From Dehalogenimonas sp. THU2 (GTDB lineage Bacteria; Chloroflexota; Dehalococcoidia; Dehalococcoidales; Dehalococcoidaceae), in contig NZ_JBDLLU010000012.1 in assembly GCF_039749495.1 (NCBI RefSeq), positions 1-64,000 on the forward strand: DNA of 64,000 bases, given 5' to 3'. The notes under the pieces were generated by a model. The model was not told the origin of the DNA and made no database searches. It saw nothing but the letters and a program-made list of their open reading frames with translations. The position numbers were made by a program, and so were the translations under genes. Below, piece by piece: positions 24,434 to 34,302 of this stretch (the stretch's first letter is position 1; every line of letters begins with the position of its first letter).

Positions 24434-24718
24434 CCACCAACCGTCATTATGAGCCGCAGCGAAATGAACTCAATGCCGTTACCAACTCACAACGCATGGT
24501 CGCTATCCTACCCTTTTCACGGTTAACGTCCCGCCCCGCCCCAGTATCAATTATTGCCCCCTTGTTATTAGTATTTGTAACTTTAGTCATATTATCATCC
24601 ACGCGAATAGTGTATATTATGTCATGTAAGGTCAGACCACCAGGCGCAGCCAATGCAGAGGGTTGGCTCGCCAGCGTTACGGCCGGACCTAATAACACAA
24701 CCTCGTGAAGGTATTAAA
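24434..24718. other. Upstream region of rdhA
   Basis: 285 bp without a gene. It begins with copy B of a dispersed repeat (24443-24483), then turns AT-rich around 24545-24620, with a possible -10 TATATT at 24613-24618 but no good -35. I see no clear regulator-binding palindrome. Confidence 0.5.
24443..24483. repeat. Dispersed repeat copy B (TGAGC-GCAGCGAA type)
   Basis: Second copy of the element at 18986-19028, here directly after the peptidase stop codon and upstream of rdhA. Confidence 0.6.
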
Positions 24719-26101
24719 ATGAAAACCTATCACACTACCGTAACCCGCCGCGATTTCATGAAGGCTTTAGGCCTGACGGGCGCCGGCCTCACCGCCGCCG
24801 CCACCGTCCCCTCTTTCGTCGATCTCGATGACGCCATCTCCCAGGGCGCCGTTAAACGCCCCTGGTGGGCTCGCACCGTCGAAACCCCCACCACCGAAGT
24901 TGACTGGCCTAATATGAAGAAGTTCTCCGAGGGCAACACCATGCGCGGCAGCGCCGCCAAATACATGCCCACCTATATCGACCAGGCCGAAACCGAACGC
25001 CGTGCAGCCTTGAAAAAAGAGGTCGAGGACGGCTACAAGGCCGACAAGAAAGCCGGTTACACTGTACGCGATTATGCGTTCAGTGGCTCCGCTGGCCAAG
25101 GCGCTGTCTCCAATTCGTTTATGGGCCCCATGAAGGCCAAGACCCCGCAGCAACTGGGTGTGGCCCCGTGGGAAGGCACCAAGGAAGAGAACGCCGCAAT
25201 GTTGCGCACCGTTCTGCGCTTCTTCGGCGCCATGAGCGTCGGTTTCACAGAGCTCCATGAAGACACCACCATGAAACTGATGTACGAGAAAGGCCCTGGT
25301 AACAAACAGGAGTATATCTTCGCCGATGTCGATGAGCCGTCGGAGACGGCCACCGAACAGATCTTCCCCAGGAAGTGTCGCTGGGTAGTCACTATCGTCA
25401 ATCAGGAGAGTCAGGAATTGTGGAAACGCAACCCCACTCCCCTCCAGGTGCAGATCCGCTACTCCCGCGCCCAGAACATCCAGGAGCAGTTCCAGGAGTT
25501 CATGCGCTCGCTCGGTTACCTCGCCCTGTCAGAGGGCGGTAACGGCACCGGTATCGCTCCGGCCTTCGGCGTCATGTCCGGCTTGGGCGAAATGGGCCGC
25601 ATGAACCGCATGATCACCACCGAGTACGGCCCGACGGTCGGTATCTTCCGCTACGTCACCGACATGCCGCTGCCCGATGAAAAACCGATCGACGCCGGCT
25701 TCCTGCGCTTCTGCAAGACCTGTATGAAATGCGCCGATGCCTGCGGTGAGGGCGCCATCTCCTTTGAGAAGGAACCCTACTGGGAAGTCGTCGGCGGCTG
25801 GAACAACCCGGGTCACCGGGCCTGGTTCGAGGATTCACGCAAGTGCCGCGCCTACAAGATGCTGCCTGACTCCTGCAACGCCGGCAAATGTCTGTCGGTC
25901 TGCACCTTCACAAAATACGAAAAGGCAGGCGTTCATGGGCTAGTGAAGGCCGTCTCTTCAACCACCCCGGTCTTCAATGGATTCTTCCGCAACATGGACG
26001 ACATCTTTTACCATGATGGTCTGAAGGACCCGGCTACCTTCTGGGAGACGCCGGTACCGGTGTACGGCATCGACGGTTCGATCGGCCTGAACACTCAGTA
26101 A
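24719..26101 (+). CDS. rdhA: Reductive dehalogenase catalytic subunit homologue
   Basis: A predicted corrinoid/Fe-S enzyme of organohalide respiration, exported by the Tat system. The N-terminus carries RRDFMK (residues 10-15) followed by a hydrophobic stretch. I chose the ATG at 24719, after GAAGG, over an upstream in-frame start because it puts the Tat motif at the usual distance. Two ferredoxin-like clusters lie near the C-terminus: C332-C335-C338-C342 (CX2CX2CX3C) and C376, C386, C391, C395 (CX9CX4CX3C). The proline that usually follows the last cysteine is Gly in the first and Thr in the second. At 460 aa it is of normal size. No rdhB anchor gene or adjacent two-component or MarR regulator is present. 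The substrate cannot be predicted. Confidence 0.9.
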   Translation: MKTYHTTVTRRDFMKALGLTGAGLTAAATVPSFVDLDDAISQGAVKRPWWARTVETPTTEVDWPNMKKFSEGNTMRGSAAKYMPTYIDQAETERRAALKKEVEDGYKADKKAGYTVRDYAFSGSAGQGAVSNSFMGPMKAKTPQQLGVAPWEGTKEENAAMLRTVLRFFGAMSVGFTELHEDTTMKLMYEKGPGNKQEYIFADVDEPSETATEQIFPRKCRWVVTIVNQESQELWKRNPTPLQVQIRYSRAQNIQEQFQEFMRSLGYLALSEGGNGTGIAPAFGVMSGLGEMGRMNRMITTEYGPTVGIFRYVTDMPLPDEKPIDAGFLRFCKTCMKCADACGEGAISFEKEPYWEVVGGWNNPGHRAWFEDSRKCRAYKMLPDSCNAGKCLSVCTFTKYEKAGVHGLVKAVSSTTPVFNGFFRNMDDIFYHDGLKDPATFWETPVPVYGIDGSIGLNTQ

Positions 26102-26121: not shown

Positions 26122-26152
26122 AAGGGAGGGGGGAATTCCCCCCTCCCTTTTT
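26122..26152 (+). terminator. Strong terminator after rdhA
   Basis: A perfect 12-bp stem AAGGGAGGGGGG/CCCCCCTCCCTT with an AATT loop and a T-run. It isolates rdhA from the arsenic-type operon. Confidence 0.93.
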
Positions 26153-26214: not shown

Positions 26215-26264
26215 TTGACTTGGAAATCGATCTTGCTTTATAATATATGCGTATATGCGCATAT
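26215..26264 (+). promoter_or_regulatory. ars operon promoter and probable ArsR operator
   Basis: TTGACT (26215-26220), an 18-bp spacer and a perfect TATAAT (26239-26244). Immediately downstream, ATATGCGCATAT (26253-26264) is a perfect 12-bp palindrome that includes the arsR ATG, preceded by a partial extra copy ATATGCG. Its position over the start site suits repression by the ArsR protein. Confidence 0.65.
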
Positions 26265-26722
26265 TAGACAATAACCCTGACCGCCTGGCCGATCTAATGA
26301 AGGCGTTATCCGACGCCACCCGGCTGCGCATCCTGAACCTGCTCATCGAGCGCGAATGCTGCGTCTGCGAGGTCATGCAGGCGCTTTCCATTTCCCAGAC
26401 CCGTGCCTCTCGTAACCTGTCGCAGCTCTATGACGCCGGATTACTGGCGCAGCGGCGGGAGGGGTTATGGACTATCTACTATCTGTCGCCGGAGGCCGCC
26501 GCGGACCACCGCGGTCTCATCATTCAGGCCGTCGAAGAAGCGCTTAAGGACAATGACCAGGCGGCTGCCGACCGCCGCCGCCTGCGTGAGAGCGCGCGCC
26601 TCTGCCCACCGGCCGATCTGCCGGGGCTGGGTACATCGAACCATCCCGACATCGAAGAACCCGCCTGCCCGGTATCCTCCGGAACTGATTCCGGACAGGC
26701 GTCAATTAAAGGAGTAATTTGA
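26255..26722 (+). CDS. arsR: ArsR/SmtB-family metalloregulator
   Basis: A winged-helix repressor that normally leaves DNA when it binds As(III) or another thiophilic metal. The core is clear: LSDATRLRILNLL, then ECCVCEV (Cys35, Cys36, Cys38), which matches the ELCVCDL metal-site motif, and SQTRASRNLSQL as the recognition helix. The C-terminus has two further cysteines and a disordered tail; 155 aa is longer than usual. The ATG lies only about a dozen bases after the -10, so the message is nearly leaderless. The stop overlaps the next gene by 4 nt. Confidence 0.92.
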   Translation: MRILDNNPDRLADLMKALSDATRLRILNLLIERECCVCEVMQALSISQTRASRNLSQLYDAGLLAQRREGLWTIYYLSPEAAADHRGLIIQAVEEALKDNDQAAADRRRLRESARLCPPADLPGLGTSNHPDIEEPACPVSSGTDSGQASIKGVI

Positions 26723-27201
26723 GCAGCAACGCCATCATCTTCATATCCCTGGCTGCCGTCCTATCGGCGGTGTCGTTCTTTCTCGACCGGGACAAGACCG
26801 TCGCCGGCTTCAAGAAAGGCTGGCAGATGTTCAGAAAAATGCTTTTGCCTCTTCTCAACATCCTCATTATCGTCAGTGTAGCTCTGTACGCCATACCGCC
26901 TAGTGCCATCGATGAATACCTCGGTGCCGGGTCCGGTATCGGCGGCTTTTTCGTCGCCGCGGTCGTCGGTTCGATCGCCTTTATCCCGCCGTTTATTTCC
27001 TACCCCATCGCCTCGGGTCTTCTGCAGCAGGGAGCAACCTATGCCGTGGTGGCCACCTTCATGACCACTTTGATCATGGTCGGCATAGTTACCCTGCCTT
27101 TAGAGATACAATACCTCGGCCGCCGCGCAGCCATTGCGCGCAACGTACTCAATTTTTTTGCTGCCATCATCGTCGGTCTGGCTATCGGAGTCGTCCTGTG
27201 A
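26719..27201 (+). CDS. Half-size permease, ArsP/DUF318-like (N-terminal partner)
   Basis: A membrane protein of 160 aa with about four hydrophobic segments. The Phe/Pro-rich FIPPFISYPIASGLLQQGA motif and the LGRRAAIARNVLNF segment resemble one half of the 300-350 aa permeases of the ArsP_1/DUF318 family. The start is TTG at 26719 with AAAGGAG upstream, and both ends overlap neighbours by 4 nt. It probably pairs with the next gene to make a full transporter. The substrate is inferred from the operon to be an arsenical or another thiophilic compound. Confidence 0.8.
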   Translation: MSSNAIIFISLAAVLSAVSFFLDRDKTVAGFKKGWQMFRKMLLPLLNILIIVSVALYAIPPSAIDEYLGAGSGIGGFFVAAVVGSIAFIPPFISYPIASGLLQQGATYAVVATFMTTLIMVGIVTLPLEIQYLGRRAAIARNVLNFFAAIIVGLAIGVVL

Positions 27202-27779
27202 AAACACTCGCCAAAAAGTACCAACCCTATATCTGGTTAGCCGCTTTCGGCGTAGCGACTATCGTTTCCTTCTCCCTGGGTTTCGATCCGGGCAAGACGG
27301 TCTTCACTAATTTCAGGGTGTCGGTCTTCGAGTTGCTGTCGTTCGTCCCTTTCATCTTCATCATCGTCGGGCTGTTTGATGTCTGGGTGCCCAAGGAAAA
27401 AATACAGAAACACCTCGGGAAGGACTCCGGCGTCAAGGGCATGTTCCTGGTAGTCCTCCTGGCCATGCTCCAAGCCGGACCGCTCTACGGCGCCTTTCCG
27501 GTGGCTTACGTCCTTCACAAGAAAGGTACCAGCGTCCGCAACATTTTCATCTACCTTGGAGCCTTCTCCTCGATGAAGATCCCAATGCTGGGCATCGAGA
27601 TCGGCTACCTGGGCGTAGAGTTCACTTTAGCGCGGACGCTCATTTCACTCCCGCTTTTCATCGCCATCGGCCTATTGATGGAACGCTATCTGAAAGGCAC
27701 TGAGTTCGAAGTGATGAACCCAGGCGAAAAACCATCGGCGCCGGCACAGGCGAACCTCCAACCCGCCGGGGGGAAATGA
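27198..27779 (+). CDS. Half-size permease, ArsP/DUF318-like (C-terminal partner)
   Basis: A membrane protein of 193 aa with five or so hydrophobic segments. Characteristic stretches are [20 protein letters not shown] and [21 protein letters not shown], like the paired half-motifs of DUF318 permeases. It starts within the last codons of the previous half and ends within the first codons of acr3, so the three are tightly co-translated. No cysteine motif is seen in its membrane segments. Confidence 0.8.
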
Positions 27780-28879
27780 TGAACCGGCCCGACGCAACCT
27801 GCGCCGTCACTCCGGACGCCGGATGCCCCACCACCCTGTCTTTCCTGGACCGGTTCCTTACGCTGTGGATATTTCTGGCCATGGCCGCCGGCGTCGGCCT
27901 GGGATTCTTCCTGCCGGGATTCGGCGATTTTATCGATTCGCTCTCGATAGGCACAACTTCGATACCCATCGCCATCGGCCTCATCCTGATGATGTACCCG
28001 CCCCTGGCCAAGGTGAAATATGAGGAACTGGGCAAGGTCTTCCGCAACTGGAAAGTGTTGCTGCTGTCGCTGATACAGAACTGGATCATCGGCCCCATCC
28101 TGATGTTCGCCCTGGCCGTCATCTTCCTGGCCGATTTCCCGGAGTACATGGTGGGCCTGATCATGATCGGGTTAGCCCGCTGCATCGCCATGGTCATCGT
28201 CTGGAACGAGTTAGCCAAAGGCGACTGCGAGTACGCCGCCGGGTTGGTGGCTTTCAACTCCATCTTCCAGATCGTGTTCTTCTCGGTTTACGCCTACGTC
28301 TTCATCACCGTGGCGCCGCAGTGGTTCGGCTTGGGCGGTGCCGTCGTCAATGTTTCCATAGGGGAGATCGCCCGCAGCGTGCTAATCTACCTGGGCATCC
28401 CGTTCTTCGGCGGCATGGCGACGCGGTACTTCCTATTGAGGCGCAGGGGTCGCAAGTGGTACGAAGGCAAGTTCATCCCCCGCATCAGCCCCATCACCCT
28501 GACGGCGCTCCTCTTCACCATCGTCGTCATGTTCTCCCTCAAGGGCGATGTCATCATCGAATTACCCCTCGACGTGGTACGCATCGCCATACCGCTCTTG
28601 ATCTACTTCGTGTTCATGTTCCTGGTGAGCTTCTACATGGGGCGGCGCATCGGCGCCGACTATTCCCAGACGGCGGCCATCTCTTTCACCGCCGCCTCCA
28701 ACAACTTCGAACTGGCCATTGCCGTGGCCATATCGGTCTTCAGCATCGGCTCCGGTGTCGCCTTCGCTGCCGTCATCGGACCGCTGGTGGAGGTGCCGGT
28801 ACTTATAAGTTTGGTGAATGTGGCCCGCTACTTCCAGCGGCGGTATTTTCAGCCGCCGTTTACCGTAAACAAAATATAG
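27776..28879 (+). CDS. acr3: Arsenite efflux transporter, ACR3 family
   Basis: A ten-helix carrier that exports arsenite driven by the membrane potential or proton gradient. Family hallmarks are visible: QNWIIGP (about 101-107), the essential membrane cysteine Cys136 in [19 protein letters not shown], and [10 protein letters not shown] with its glutamate near residue 305. At 367 aa it is a normal length. An extra N-terminal cysteine pair (Cys9, Cys17) precedes the first helix. It lies between the half-permeases and the selenoprotein candidate, 12 nt before the latter. No arsC arsenate reductase gene is seen in the operon. Confidence 0.94.
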
Positions 28880-28891
28880 AAGGAGATAAAA

Positions 28892-29230
28892 ATGTCAGAA
28901 CAACAGGTCAACATCATCGTATTCCCTGCCCCTCTATCCGGGTCGTGCTGAGGCCCCCAGGGACAATCGTCGGAGACGATTGAAGCGATCAAAACAGCCG
29001 TCGAGGGCGTGACCGGCGGGACCGCGGCCGTCATCGACGTTGAAACCATCGATGCCGATGACCCGGTCTTTGCCCCGGTAATCAAGGCTTTCGACGCCTA
29101 CGGTACCTGGGCCCTGCCCGTCGTCACACTGAATGGCCAGGTAGTGTCGGTGGCAGTCTCCGCGCCAGGCCAGATAGCAGCGGCTCTAGACCAGGCACTC
29201 AAGGCCGCGGTAGACCCTTCCACAGCGTAG
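28892..29230 (+). CDS. Thioredoxin-like selenoprotein with in-frame TGA (predicted Sec20)
   Basis: The ATG at 28892 follows AGAAGGAG. The frame reads MSEQQVNIIVFPAPLSGSC, then TGA (28949-28951), then stays open for 92 codons to TAG at 29230, giving 112 aa with Cys19-Sec20-Gly21-Pro22. The part after the TGA has the look of a thioredoxin fold, including ALPVVTLNG, a cis-proline-like strand. A perfect 8-bp hairpin with a GGA loop lies 12 nt after the TGA. An adjacent Cys-Sec-Gly also occurs at the active end of mammalian thioredoxin reductase. The gene is in the arsenic operon between acr3 and an ArsP-like permease. A redox role with arsenic or selenium compounds is inferred. The alternative is a gene broken by a nonsense mutation. 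Confidence 0.82.
28964..28982 (+). promoter_or_regulatory. Predicted bacterial SECIS element
   Basis: CAATCGTC (28964-28971) pairs perfectly with GACGATTG (28975-28982) around the loop GGA (28972-28974). The loop begins 20 nt after the TGA and has G at its first two positions, as described for bacterial SECIS hairpins read by SelB. It lies wholly within the coding frame. Confidence 0.8.
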
Positions 29231-29320
29231 GGGCACATTGCGCATACACGGGTGTAGGGGCGGGTCTGAGACCCGCCCGCCCGGTCTCCCGTTTTGAAGG
29301 GACACGCCGTGCCGTGTCCT
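29228..29320. repeat. Array of GC-rich hairpin repeats inside the ars locus
   Basis: GTAGGGGC occurs at about 29228 and 29254. The second leads into a perfect 9-bp hairpin GGGCGGGTC-TGA-GACCCGCCC (29258-29278). A third hairpin, GGACACG/CGTGTCC, follows near 29300-29320. It is of the same type as 391-410. It splits the operon between the selenoprotein gene and the ArsP-like permease. Confidence 0.65.
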
Positions 29321-29372: not shown

Positions 29373-30401
29373 TTGGACTTCATCTTAAATATGCTTTCAG
29401 GCGGCGTCGCTTCTCTCTTCGACTATCTATCGGCACACGTACTGACCTGCCTGGTGCCTGCCTTCTTCATCGCTGGTGGCGTTGCTGTGTTCATCTCAGC
29501 TCCAGCAGTGCTGAAATACTTCGGCCCCCAGGCCAACAAGTTCCTGAGTTATGGCGTCGCCTCGGTTTCCGGCAGTATTCTGGCCGTTTGTTCCTGTACG
29601 GTTTTGCCGCTCTTTGCCGGTATCTACAAACGCGGCGGTGGTATCGGTCCGGCCACAACCTTCCTGTTCTCCGGTCCGGCTATCAACATACTGGCTATCG
29701 TTTATTCTGCCCGCTTGCTTGGTTGGGATATCGGCTTAGCCCGGGCTATCGCCGCGGTATCGCTGGCTATCGTCATCGGCTTAATCATGGCTTACCTTTT
29801 CCGTAAAGACTCTGAAAACCAACCAGCTTCCGAACTGTTTGCCAGCGACGGTGATGATTCCAAACGGTTATGGCAGACGCTCCTTTTTTTCGGCACACTG
29901 GTCGGCATCCTAATCTTCGCCTCCGCCGCCAATTGGCCGGTAACCATTCTCCTGCTCGTCGCGTTGGGCTTGGTTCTCCGGCGCTATTTCAACCTTGATG
30001 AGATCAAACACTGGCTCCGGGAAACCTGGGCTTTCGTAAAACTGATCTTTCCCTGGCTTATCGGCGGCGTGTTCCTGGCTGGGGTTATCAGGACCATCAT
30101 TCCGGCGGACCTTATTACCGGGGCGGTAGGCGAGAGCAACTTGTCTTCAAATATCCTGGCATCCGTTTTTGGCGCGCTGATGTACTTCGCCACGCTGACC
30201 GAAGTCCCCATCCTGAAGGCCTTTCTGGAATTAGGCATGGACAAAGGCCCTGCTCTAGCGTTGCTGCTGGCAGGCCCGGCGCTGTCACTGCCCAGTATGC
30301 TGGTTATACGTAAGATAATGGGCAATAAACGGGCGTTCACCTATGTTGGCCTGGTCGTTGTATCATCTACATTAGCGGGCATGATCTTCGGAATGTTCTA
30401 G
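29373..30401 (+). CDS. ArsP/DUF318-family permease (full length)
   Basis: A membrane permease of 342 aa with about eight hydrophobic segments, the full-size counterpart of the two half-permeases upstream. The first half has VCSCTVLPLFAGIYKRGGGIG and FLFSGPAINILA; the second half repeats the pattern as YFATLTEVPILKAFLELGMDKG and LLAGPALSLPSMLVI. The family includes organoarsenical exporters and many uncharacterised permeases. The start is TTG at 29373 with no clear ribosome-binding site; an ATG at 29391 would be the next choice. It is followed 19 nt later by a small thioredoxin, a common pairing for this permease family. Confidence 0.85.
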   Translation: MDFILNMLSGGVASLFDYLSAHVLTCLVPAFFIAGGVAVFISAPAVLKYFGPQANKFLSYGVASVSGSILAVCSCTVLPLFAGIYKRGGGIGPATTFLFSGPAINILAIVYSARLLGWDIGLARAIAAVSLAIVIGLIMAYLFRKDSENQPASELFASDGDDSKRLWQTLLFFGTLVGILIFASAANWPVTILLLVALGLVLRRYFNLDEIKHWLRETWAFVKLIFPWLIGGVFLAGVIRTIIPADLITGAVGESNLSSNILASVFGALMYFATLTEVPILKAFLELGMDKGPALALLLAGPALSLPSMLVIRKIMGNKRAFTYVGLVVVSSTLAGMIFGMF

Positions 30402-30420: not shown

Positions 30421-30660
30421 ATGAAAATTAAAATTCTGGGTACCGGGTGCCCCAAGTGTAACCAGCTGGAAGCCGTAACCCGCGACGCGGTAAAGGAATT
30501 AGGCCTTGACGCCGAAATCGAAAAAGTCAAAGACATCACTAAAATAATGGCTTACCCGGTGATGATGACTCCCGCGCTGGTGATCGATGAAAAAGTGGTC
30601 CTATCGGGTAAGGTGCCCGGTAAAGCCGATATAATCGCTCTATTAAAAAGTGCCCTGTAG
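30421..30660 (+). CDS. Small thioredoxin-like redox-active disulfide protein
   Basis: A 79-aa single-domain thioredoxin fold of the TM0996/MTH895 type (redox-active disulfide protein 2). The active site is Cys10-Pro-Lys-Cys13 in GTGCPKCNQLE, and the cis-proline strand is MMTPALVIDEKVVLSG. It is preceded by AGGAG. It is partnered with the permease just upstream, and with the Cys-Sec protein it gives this operon two thioredoxin-fold proteins. The substrate is unknown. Confidence 0.9.
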   Translation: MKIKILGTGCPKCNQLEAVTRDAVKELGLDAEIEKVKDITKIMAYPVMMTPALVIDEKVVLSGKVPGKADIIALLKSAL

Positions 30661-32902: not shown

Positions 32903-32941
32903 TAAAAAACAATGAACGAGGGAGGCTTCATCTCCCTCGTT
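32903..32941 (-). terminator. Terminator after the feoA-like gene
   Basis: A perfect 10-bp stem AACGAGGGAG/CTCCCTCGTT (32915-32941) with a 7-nt loop. On the minus strand it is followed, after six bases, by a run of six T. It separates the broken feoA-like gene from lepB. Confidence 0.65.
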
Positions 32942-34282: not shown

Positions 34283-34302
34283 TTCCCGCCTCCTCCATAT
34301 GA

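Follow-up and report, generated by a model that had tools for sequence, protein, structure and literature searches.

What does a TGA codon signify when it interrupts, after only 19 codons, an otherwise open reading frame in the middle of an arsenic operon? The question is raised by positions 28892 to 29230 of the window, by which we mean the whole 64,000-nucleotide stretch of Dehalogenimonas sp. THU2 DNA that was analysed, and it has two parts: whether the codon is read as selenocysteine (Sec), and what a selenoprotein would be doing among arsenic exporters. Here we show by comparative analysis that the segment very likely encodes a selenoprotein with Sec at position 20, with the reservation that there is no peptide or selenium evidence. 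The second part is answered more tentatively. We lean, by a modest margin, towards an account in which this Sec protein is an arsenic carrier resembling ArsD.

An interrupted reading frame in an arsenic operon

The features of the locus are as follows.

26215..26244, + strand: promoter-like site TTGACT-18-TATAAT before arsR (11/12 consensus match, and a consensus match only)
26255..26722, + strand: arsR, ArsR/SmtB metalloregulator, 155 aa (PF01022 E 7.6e-14; NF033788 above cut-off)
26719..27201, + strand: half-size ArsP-like permease A, 160 aa (PF03773 E 6.4e-7, slightly below the gathering score)
27198..27779, + strand: half-size ArsP-like permease B, 193 aa (PF03773 E 2.9e-12)
27776..28879, + strand: acr3, arsenite efflux pump, 367 aa (TIGR00832 E 8e-140, 465.8 bits vs 282.8 cut-off)
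28880..28885, + strand: ribosome-binding site AAGGAG (from the sequence)
28892..29230, + strand: very likely selenoprotein gene, 112 aa with Sec20; thioredoxin-like, distantly ArsD-like
28949..28951, + strand: TGA very likely decoded as selenocysteine (in-frame TGA in 9/9 homologues)
28964..28982, + strand: SECIS-type hairpin, 8-bp stem, GGA loop (stem identical in 9/9 copies)
29373..30401, + strand: arsP-type permease, 342 aa (PF03773 E 4.1e-87)
30421..30660, + strand: arsE-type small thioredoxin with a CPKC motif, 79 aa (TIGR00412 111.8 bits vs cut-off 62)

The frame opens with ATG 28892 and runs for 19 codons to the TGA, beyond which 92 more open codons lead to TAG at 29228-29230; the joined translation begins MSEQQVNIIVFPAPLSGSCUGPQGQSSETIEAIK. 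A first-pass annotation, made from the sequence alone, had proposed a selenoprotein of thioredoxin fold, equipped with a SECIS-type hairpin and encoded in an arsenic operon, a description that is supported. Its account of the ribosome-binding site, the ATG, the 19 codons, the TGA, the 92 codons and the hairpin was exact to the base, and its expectation that a gene finder would call only the part from GTG 29009 also held, since the conventional ORF listing contains just the 73-residue frame 29009-29230.

The arsR, permease A, permease B and acr3 genes are joined by 4-nt overlaps, and the selenoprotein gene starts 12 nt after acr3. ACR3 precedes the selenoprotein gene in seven of the nine copies that we found in the genus, the window's own included, and permease A is conserved along with the operon in relatives. 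The order in genome G031 is ACR3, selenoprotein, ArsD and an ArsA-like ATPase gene. In G030 ArsD forms the end of a fused protein, the order being ACR3, selenoprotein, this fusion and an ArsA-like gene; in both cases the ArsA-like naming rests on the P-loop sequence GKGGVGKT of large genes. Genome G032 has two copies, the first ahead of permeases and without ACR3, the second (L041:8848-9189) alone beside ABC transporter genes with its TGA and hairpin intact. The syntenic place of this lone copy in G036 holds ACR3 and a selenoprotein gene.

Several minor observations concern these neighbourhoods. Neither of the permeases at 26719-27779 matches the PF03773 profile beyond its first half, and the half-size pair is kept with the operon in most of the genus, possibly as a heterodimer. 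The gene directly upstream of the arsenic operon (24653-26101) codes for a reductive dehalogenase bearing a TAT signal, and a hairpin resembling a terminator comes after it at 26122-26149. The intergenic stretch 29250-29320, from the selenoprotein gene to arsP, carries GC-rich inverted repeats (GGGCGGGTCTGAGACCCGCCC, then GGACACG...CGTGTCC) that may represent either a terminator or a dispersed repeat. The ArsD of G030 (L040:7042-7950, minus strand) follows, within one fused protein, a Cys-rich N-terminal domain (~190 residues) that contains the motifs CKRC and CESC; an in-frame TGA flagged in this gene was rejected as a Sec codon, being an ordinary stop after a C-terminal Cys-Cys.

Conservation of the TGA codon, its hairpin and the selenocysteine machinery

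A spacer of 12 nt separates the TGA from the perfect hairpin, CAATCGTC-GGA-GACGATTG, and the distance from the TGA to the loop is 20 nt. Of the 2211 TGA triplets in the window, 13 precede a perfect hairpin of no fewer than 8 bp that lies within the next 45 nt, and in three of these cases at least 60 open codons follow as well. The folding energy of the hairpin region is unremarkable (z -0.34, a score that is uninformative by itself). Because of these chance hairpins and this folding energy, the single sequence is suggestive and does not amount to proof. It is very likely the conservation across the genus that establishes the significance of the observation, by comparison and not by experiment. 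Elsewhere in the window, TGA triplets at 32913 and 34300 (+ strand) have perfect hairpins of 9 and 12 bp downstream and are followed by open frames of 113 and 259 codons, respectively; the hairpin at 34300 lies 18 nt past an ORF and is possibly a terminator.

A search of 156 genomes of the order returned strong homologues only from this genus, in 8/8 genomes and nine copies, along with two other matches that were weak and partial. Each copy has a single internal TGA, which always falls at the same position and is flanked on either side by coding sequence. The homologues are 36-67% identical to the window protein, and the residues that never change are M1, P12, Sec20, P22, G24, Q25, S26, S27, T29, I30 and I33 in the N-terminal part and D49, I53, F67, L75, P76 and G82 in the remainder. 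Cys adjoins Sec in seven copies and stands at Sec minus 4 in the other two (CGGGU, CTSGU), so that every copy has one Cys no more than four residues upstream.

These results bear on two points of the first-pass annotation. It would have been refuted by homologues with an unconserved N-terminal segment and neither Cys nor Sec at position 20, and this outcome was not seen: the segment is conserved and position 20 is Sec in 9/9. Its adjacent Cys19-Sec20 held only in part, as Sec is invariant and the neighbouring Cys is not; the redox pair that it drew from this adjacency remains possible, and an arsenic-binding pair suits the surroundings at least as well.

Beyond the genus, a phylum search (400 genomes) gave only weak partial matches, and no relatives were detected when 84,980 species genomes were scanned with single-protein and alignment patterns or when viral contigs and plasmids were searched. 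It should be noted that the pattern scans need near-exact peptide stretches and may omit near genomes, and absence outside the genus is weak evidence. No homologue with Cys in place of Sec was found, searches outside the genus being of limited sensitivity.

The strongest signal lies in the hairpin itself. Its 19-mer pattern occurs once per copy, at the expected place, in all eight genus genomes, and its six codons (QSSETI) are identical synonymous codons in 208/208 comparisons, as against 632/1504 (42%) elsewhere in the gene and 89/220 upstream of the TGA. This contrast indicates selection on the RNA. Correspondingly, pS is 0.00 inside the hairpin vs 0.72-0.73 on both flanks, and pN/pS values of 0.62 before and 0.51 after the TGA show coding constraint on both sides. 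The probability of such codon uniformity under the genes' own codon usage is ~1e-18, a figure that is overstated because it treats the sequences as independent, although the flanking synonymous sites are near saturation. One copy has a loop changed from GGA to GTC (E to S in the protein) on an unchanged stem, and covariation is unusable as a test because the stem never varies. Bacterial SECIS (bSECIS) rules call for a loop of 3-9 nt, a stem of 4-16 bp, G[G/U] at the loop start, a spacing of 16-37 nt from the UGA and an MFE of -7.5 or lower (PMC13188914). All are met, with a 3-nt loop (GGA or GUC), 8 bp, 20 nt and an MFE of -9.2 to -15.9 kcal/mol across copies (48 nt counted from the TGA). The invariant hairpin also offers, beyond the model organisms, a remarkably clear natural case in which to test SECIS recognition.

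A lack of selA, selB or selC would have refuted the first-pass reading, but these three and selD are all present in the host genome (1.84 Mb, 35 contigs, 99.8% complete, the window lying in contig C12). The tRNA-Sec gene (selC, C10:12559) scores 70.3 bits vs a gathering score of 47, selA matches at 531 bits vs a cut-off of 268 and selB at 344 bits vs 242, and the cluster order is selC-D-A-B. SelD is itself Sec-containing, with ...EYSAYSG-U-AAKIGPGDLAKAL read through UGA; in its gene (L008, G000:C10, around 461) the SG-UGA-AAKIG site is followed by a short hairpin. The formate dehydrogenase alpha subunit gene fdnG has one internal TGA, at ARL-U-HSS; by our reading of its sequence it also has a hairpin, whose 3-nt loop is GTT and whose distance from the TGA resembles that in the selenoprotein gene. 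Across genomes, selA is present in 8/8 of this genus vs 0/3 of the sister genus, and the selenoprotein gene was not found in those three sister-genus genomes. Dehalogenimonas has been published with selCDAB and with Sec-containing FdnG and SelD (PMC13390414, PMC4918011), which likewise use UGA for Sec and are unrelated as proteins to the one described here.

The Sec reading is thus strongly supported by the conserved TGA, the hairpin codons, the fit to the bSECIS rules, the sel genes and the coding constraint. It would give this organohalide-respiring genus a third selenoprotein, PMC13390414 and PMC4918011 reporting only FdnG and SelD. Neither NCBIfam release 20.0 nor Pfam nor a 2026 inventory of 119 prokaryotic selenoprotein families contains the (C)UGPxGQSSETI motif or the family, and the open-licence literature searched (ArsD/selenoprotein, Dehalogenimonas/selenocysteine) holds no report of the protein; an earlier mention elsewhere is possible.

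Fold and relation to ArsD

Searches of Pfam and NCBIfam gave no significant match for the window protein. When all nine members were scanned against Pfam, weak matches to Thioredoxin_3 (best 2.3e-5) and to ArsD (best 9e-4) were each obtained for 5/9, and the scan of genome G033 against Pfam ArsD reached 18.7 bits vs a gathering cut-off of 27. Profile comparison (hhalign) gave E 2.5e-5 for ArsD, mainly over the C-terminal half, and E 0.011 for ArsE. An AlphaFold2 model (mean pLDDT 80, pTM 0.72, order beta-alpha-beta-alpha-beta-beta-alpha) predicts a thioredoxin fold with Cys19-Sec20 in the loop that leads from strand 1 to helix 1 and a conserved LP segment of the cis-proline type; it was built on only nine sequences and has a pLDDT of 60 around the active site. 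The top seven Foldseek matches of this model in the PDB are all ArsD chains (best E 9.6e-4, TM ~0.45), and in VIA-align ArsD reached Z 7.0, a value that several other thioredoxin-like proteins equalled. The profile and fold pointers are weak, and what they likely reflect is distant ArsD/thioredoxin kinship and not membership of ArsD.

ArsD (PF06953 / NF033727; 3KGK, 3MWH, 3KTB) is the best fold and profile neighbour. It is similar in size to the selenoprotein, and the two share a thioredoxin-type fold (predicted for the selenoprotein), arsenite efflux neighbours, a vicinal Cys-type pair after the first strand, and an invariant LP with the G that follows. However, the selenoprotein has Sec in the pair and scores below the Pfam gathering cut-off, and the ArsD triad of Cys12, Cys13 and Cys18 is not met: the window protein has only Cys19 and Sec20, lacking both an equivalent of the third site Cys (Cys18) and the C-terminal Cys pair. 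Unlike ArsD it has no ArsA partner gene in the window operon, and its GPxGQSSETIEAI motif is absent from the ArsD alignment. The ArsE or MTH895-type thioredoxin (TIGR00412), with a copy in this operon at 30421, is also a small thioredoxin-like protein of arsenic operons, but it is shorter, has a CxxC motif and contains no Sec. Catalogued thioredoxin-like selenoproteins include SaoT (NF040730), Sec.1 (CxU), Sec.2 (UxC), TsoX and the DF family (PMC13188914). The catalogued Sec families resemble the present one in being small Sec proteins, several of them thioredoxin-like and some encoded in metal or organometal operons (PMC13188914), but their Sec motifs differ and there is no significant NCBIfam release 20.0 match.

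A putative arsenic carrier and its rivals

According to the model that we prefer, SelB, guided by the hairpin at 28964-28982, would insert selenocysteine at TGA 28949, a step not shown by experiment. The selenolate and the nearby thiolate would capture cytosolic trivalent arsenic (arsenite or methylarsenite), which would be handed to the co-encoded exporters, ACR3 first and the ArsP-type permeases second. Such a mode of action, inferred throughout, would resemble that of the arsenite metallochaperone ArsD. An arsenic role is suggested by the adjacency of ACR3 in 7/9 copies, by the ArsD and ArsA-like neighbours in two genomes and by the similarity to ArsD. Against carriage stand the Cys partner, which shifts by three residues in two copies, and the lone G032 copy (L041), which lies outside any arsenic operon. 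We regard the inferred carrier role as evenly poised; stated more loosely, as binding or reducing arsenic before export, the inferred role is likely.

Two genomes encode the selenoprotein alongside both a genuine ArsD and an ArsA-like gene, and so it is no mere substitute for them. This argues for a role distinct from that of ArsD, perhaps that of feeding ACR3 directly. A bolder reading, which is somewhat more likely to prove wrong than right, is that Cys-Sec is an arsenic ligand and not a redox centre, in a selenium-based chaperone that would feed ACR3 without an ATPase. To our knowledge no selenoprotein serves as an arsenite or methylarsenite chaperone. On any of these readings the selenoprotein would connect selenium with the export of arsenic, an element with which it reacts strongly, and would do so in bacteria of groundwater that serve in bioremediation.

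The main rival, to which we give distinctly less than even credence, is that the protein is a selenol/thiol oxidoreductase in which a disulfide or an oxidised arsenical would be the target of Sec20, the nearby Cys would resolve the intermediate, and electrons would be supplied to arsenate reductase, ArsE or the transporters. In its favour are the thioredoxin fold with its cis-proline type LP segment, the weak Thioredoxin_3 matches in five members, and a pattern fitting catalysis, in which Sec alone among the redox residues is invariant and Cys changes position. Furthermore, selenoproteins with a thioredoxin fold are mostly thought to be redox enzymes (PMC13188914). Mammalian thioredoxin reductase, too, has an adjacent Cys-Sec. 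Against it, there is no CxxU or UxxC motif, the closest profile and fold matches are ArsD and not thioredoxin or ArsE, and the operon already has a CxxC thioredoxin in ArsE. ArsC-like proteins (PF01451, VLFVCIHNSGRS start) are found elsewhere in 7/8 genomes, and arsenate reduction therefore need not be the selenoprotein's task. Identity as an arsenate reductase (ArsC, PF03960) was considered separately and rejected, there being no PF03960 match in the protein or the genus; the ArsC-like proteins disfavour it as well.

It is formally possible, though very unlikely, that the hairpin has nothing to do with Sec insertion, being a regulatory RNA element or a palindromic operator, and that readthrough of the TGA happens in some other way. 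The invariant stem lends this some support, in that covariation cannot prove RNA structure. However, the position is fixed relative to the TGA, all bSECIS rules fit, with G[G/U] in both loop variants, and the fdnG gene of the same host has its GTT-loop hairpin at a similar distance.

The reading that the gene ends at the TGA, with a separate downstream gene from GTG 29009 or a decayed gene, is what gene callers would report and is all but excluded. The TGA is present in 9/9 copies, the protein is conserved to either side of it, synonymous divergence is saturated and the hairpin is invariant. A decayed gene would show scattered stops and frameshifts, and reading across the TGA yields a single complete thioredoxin fold in the AlphaFold2 model. 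Annotation pipelines are expected to truncate or miss the selenoprotein gene in each of these genomes.
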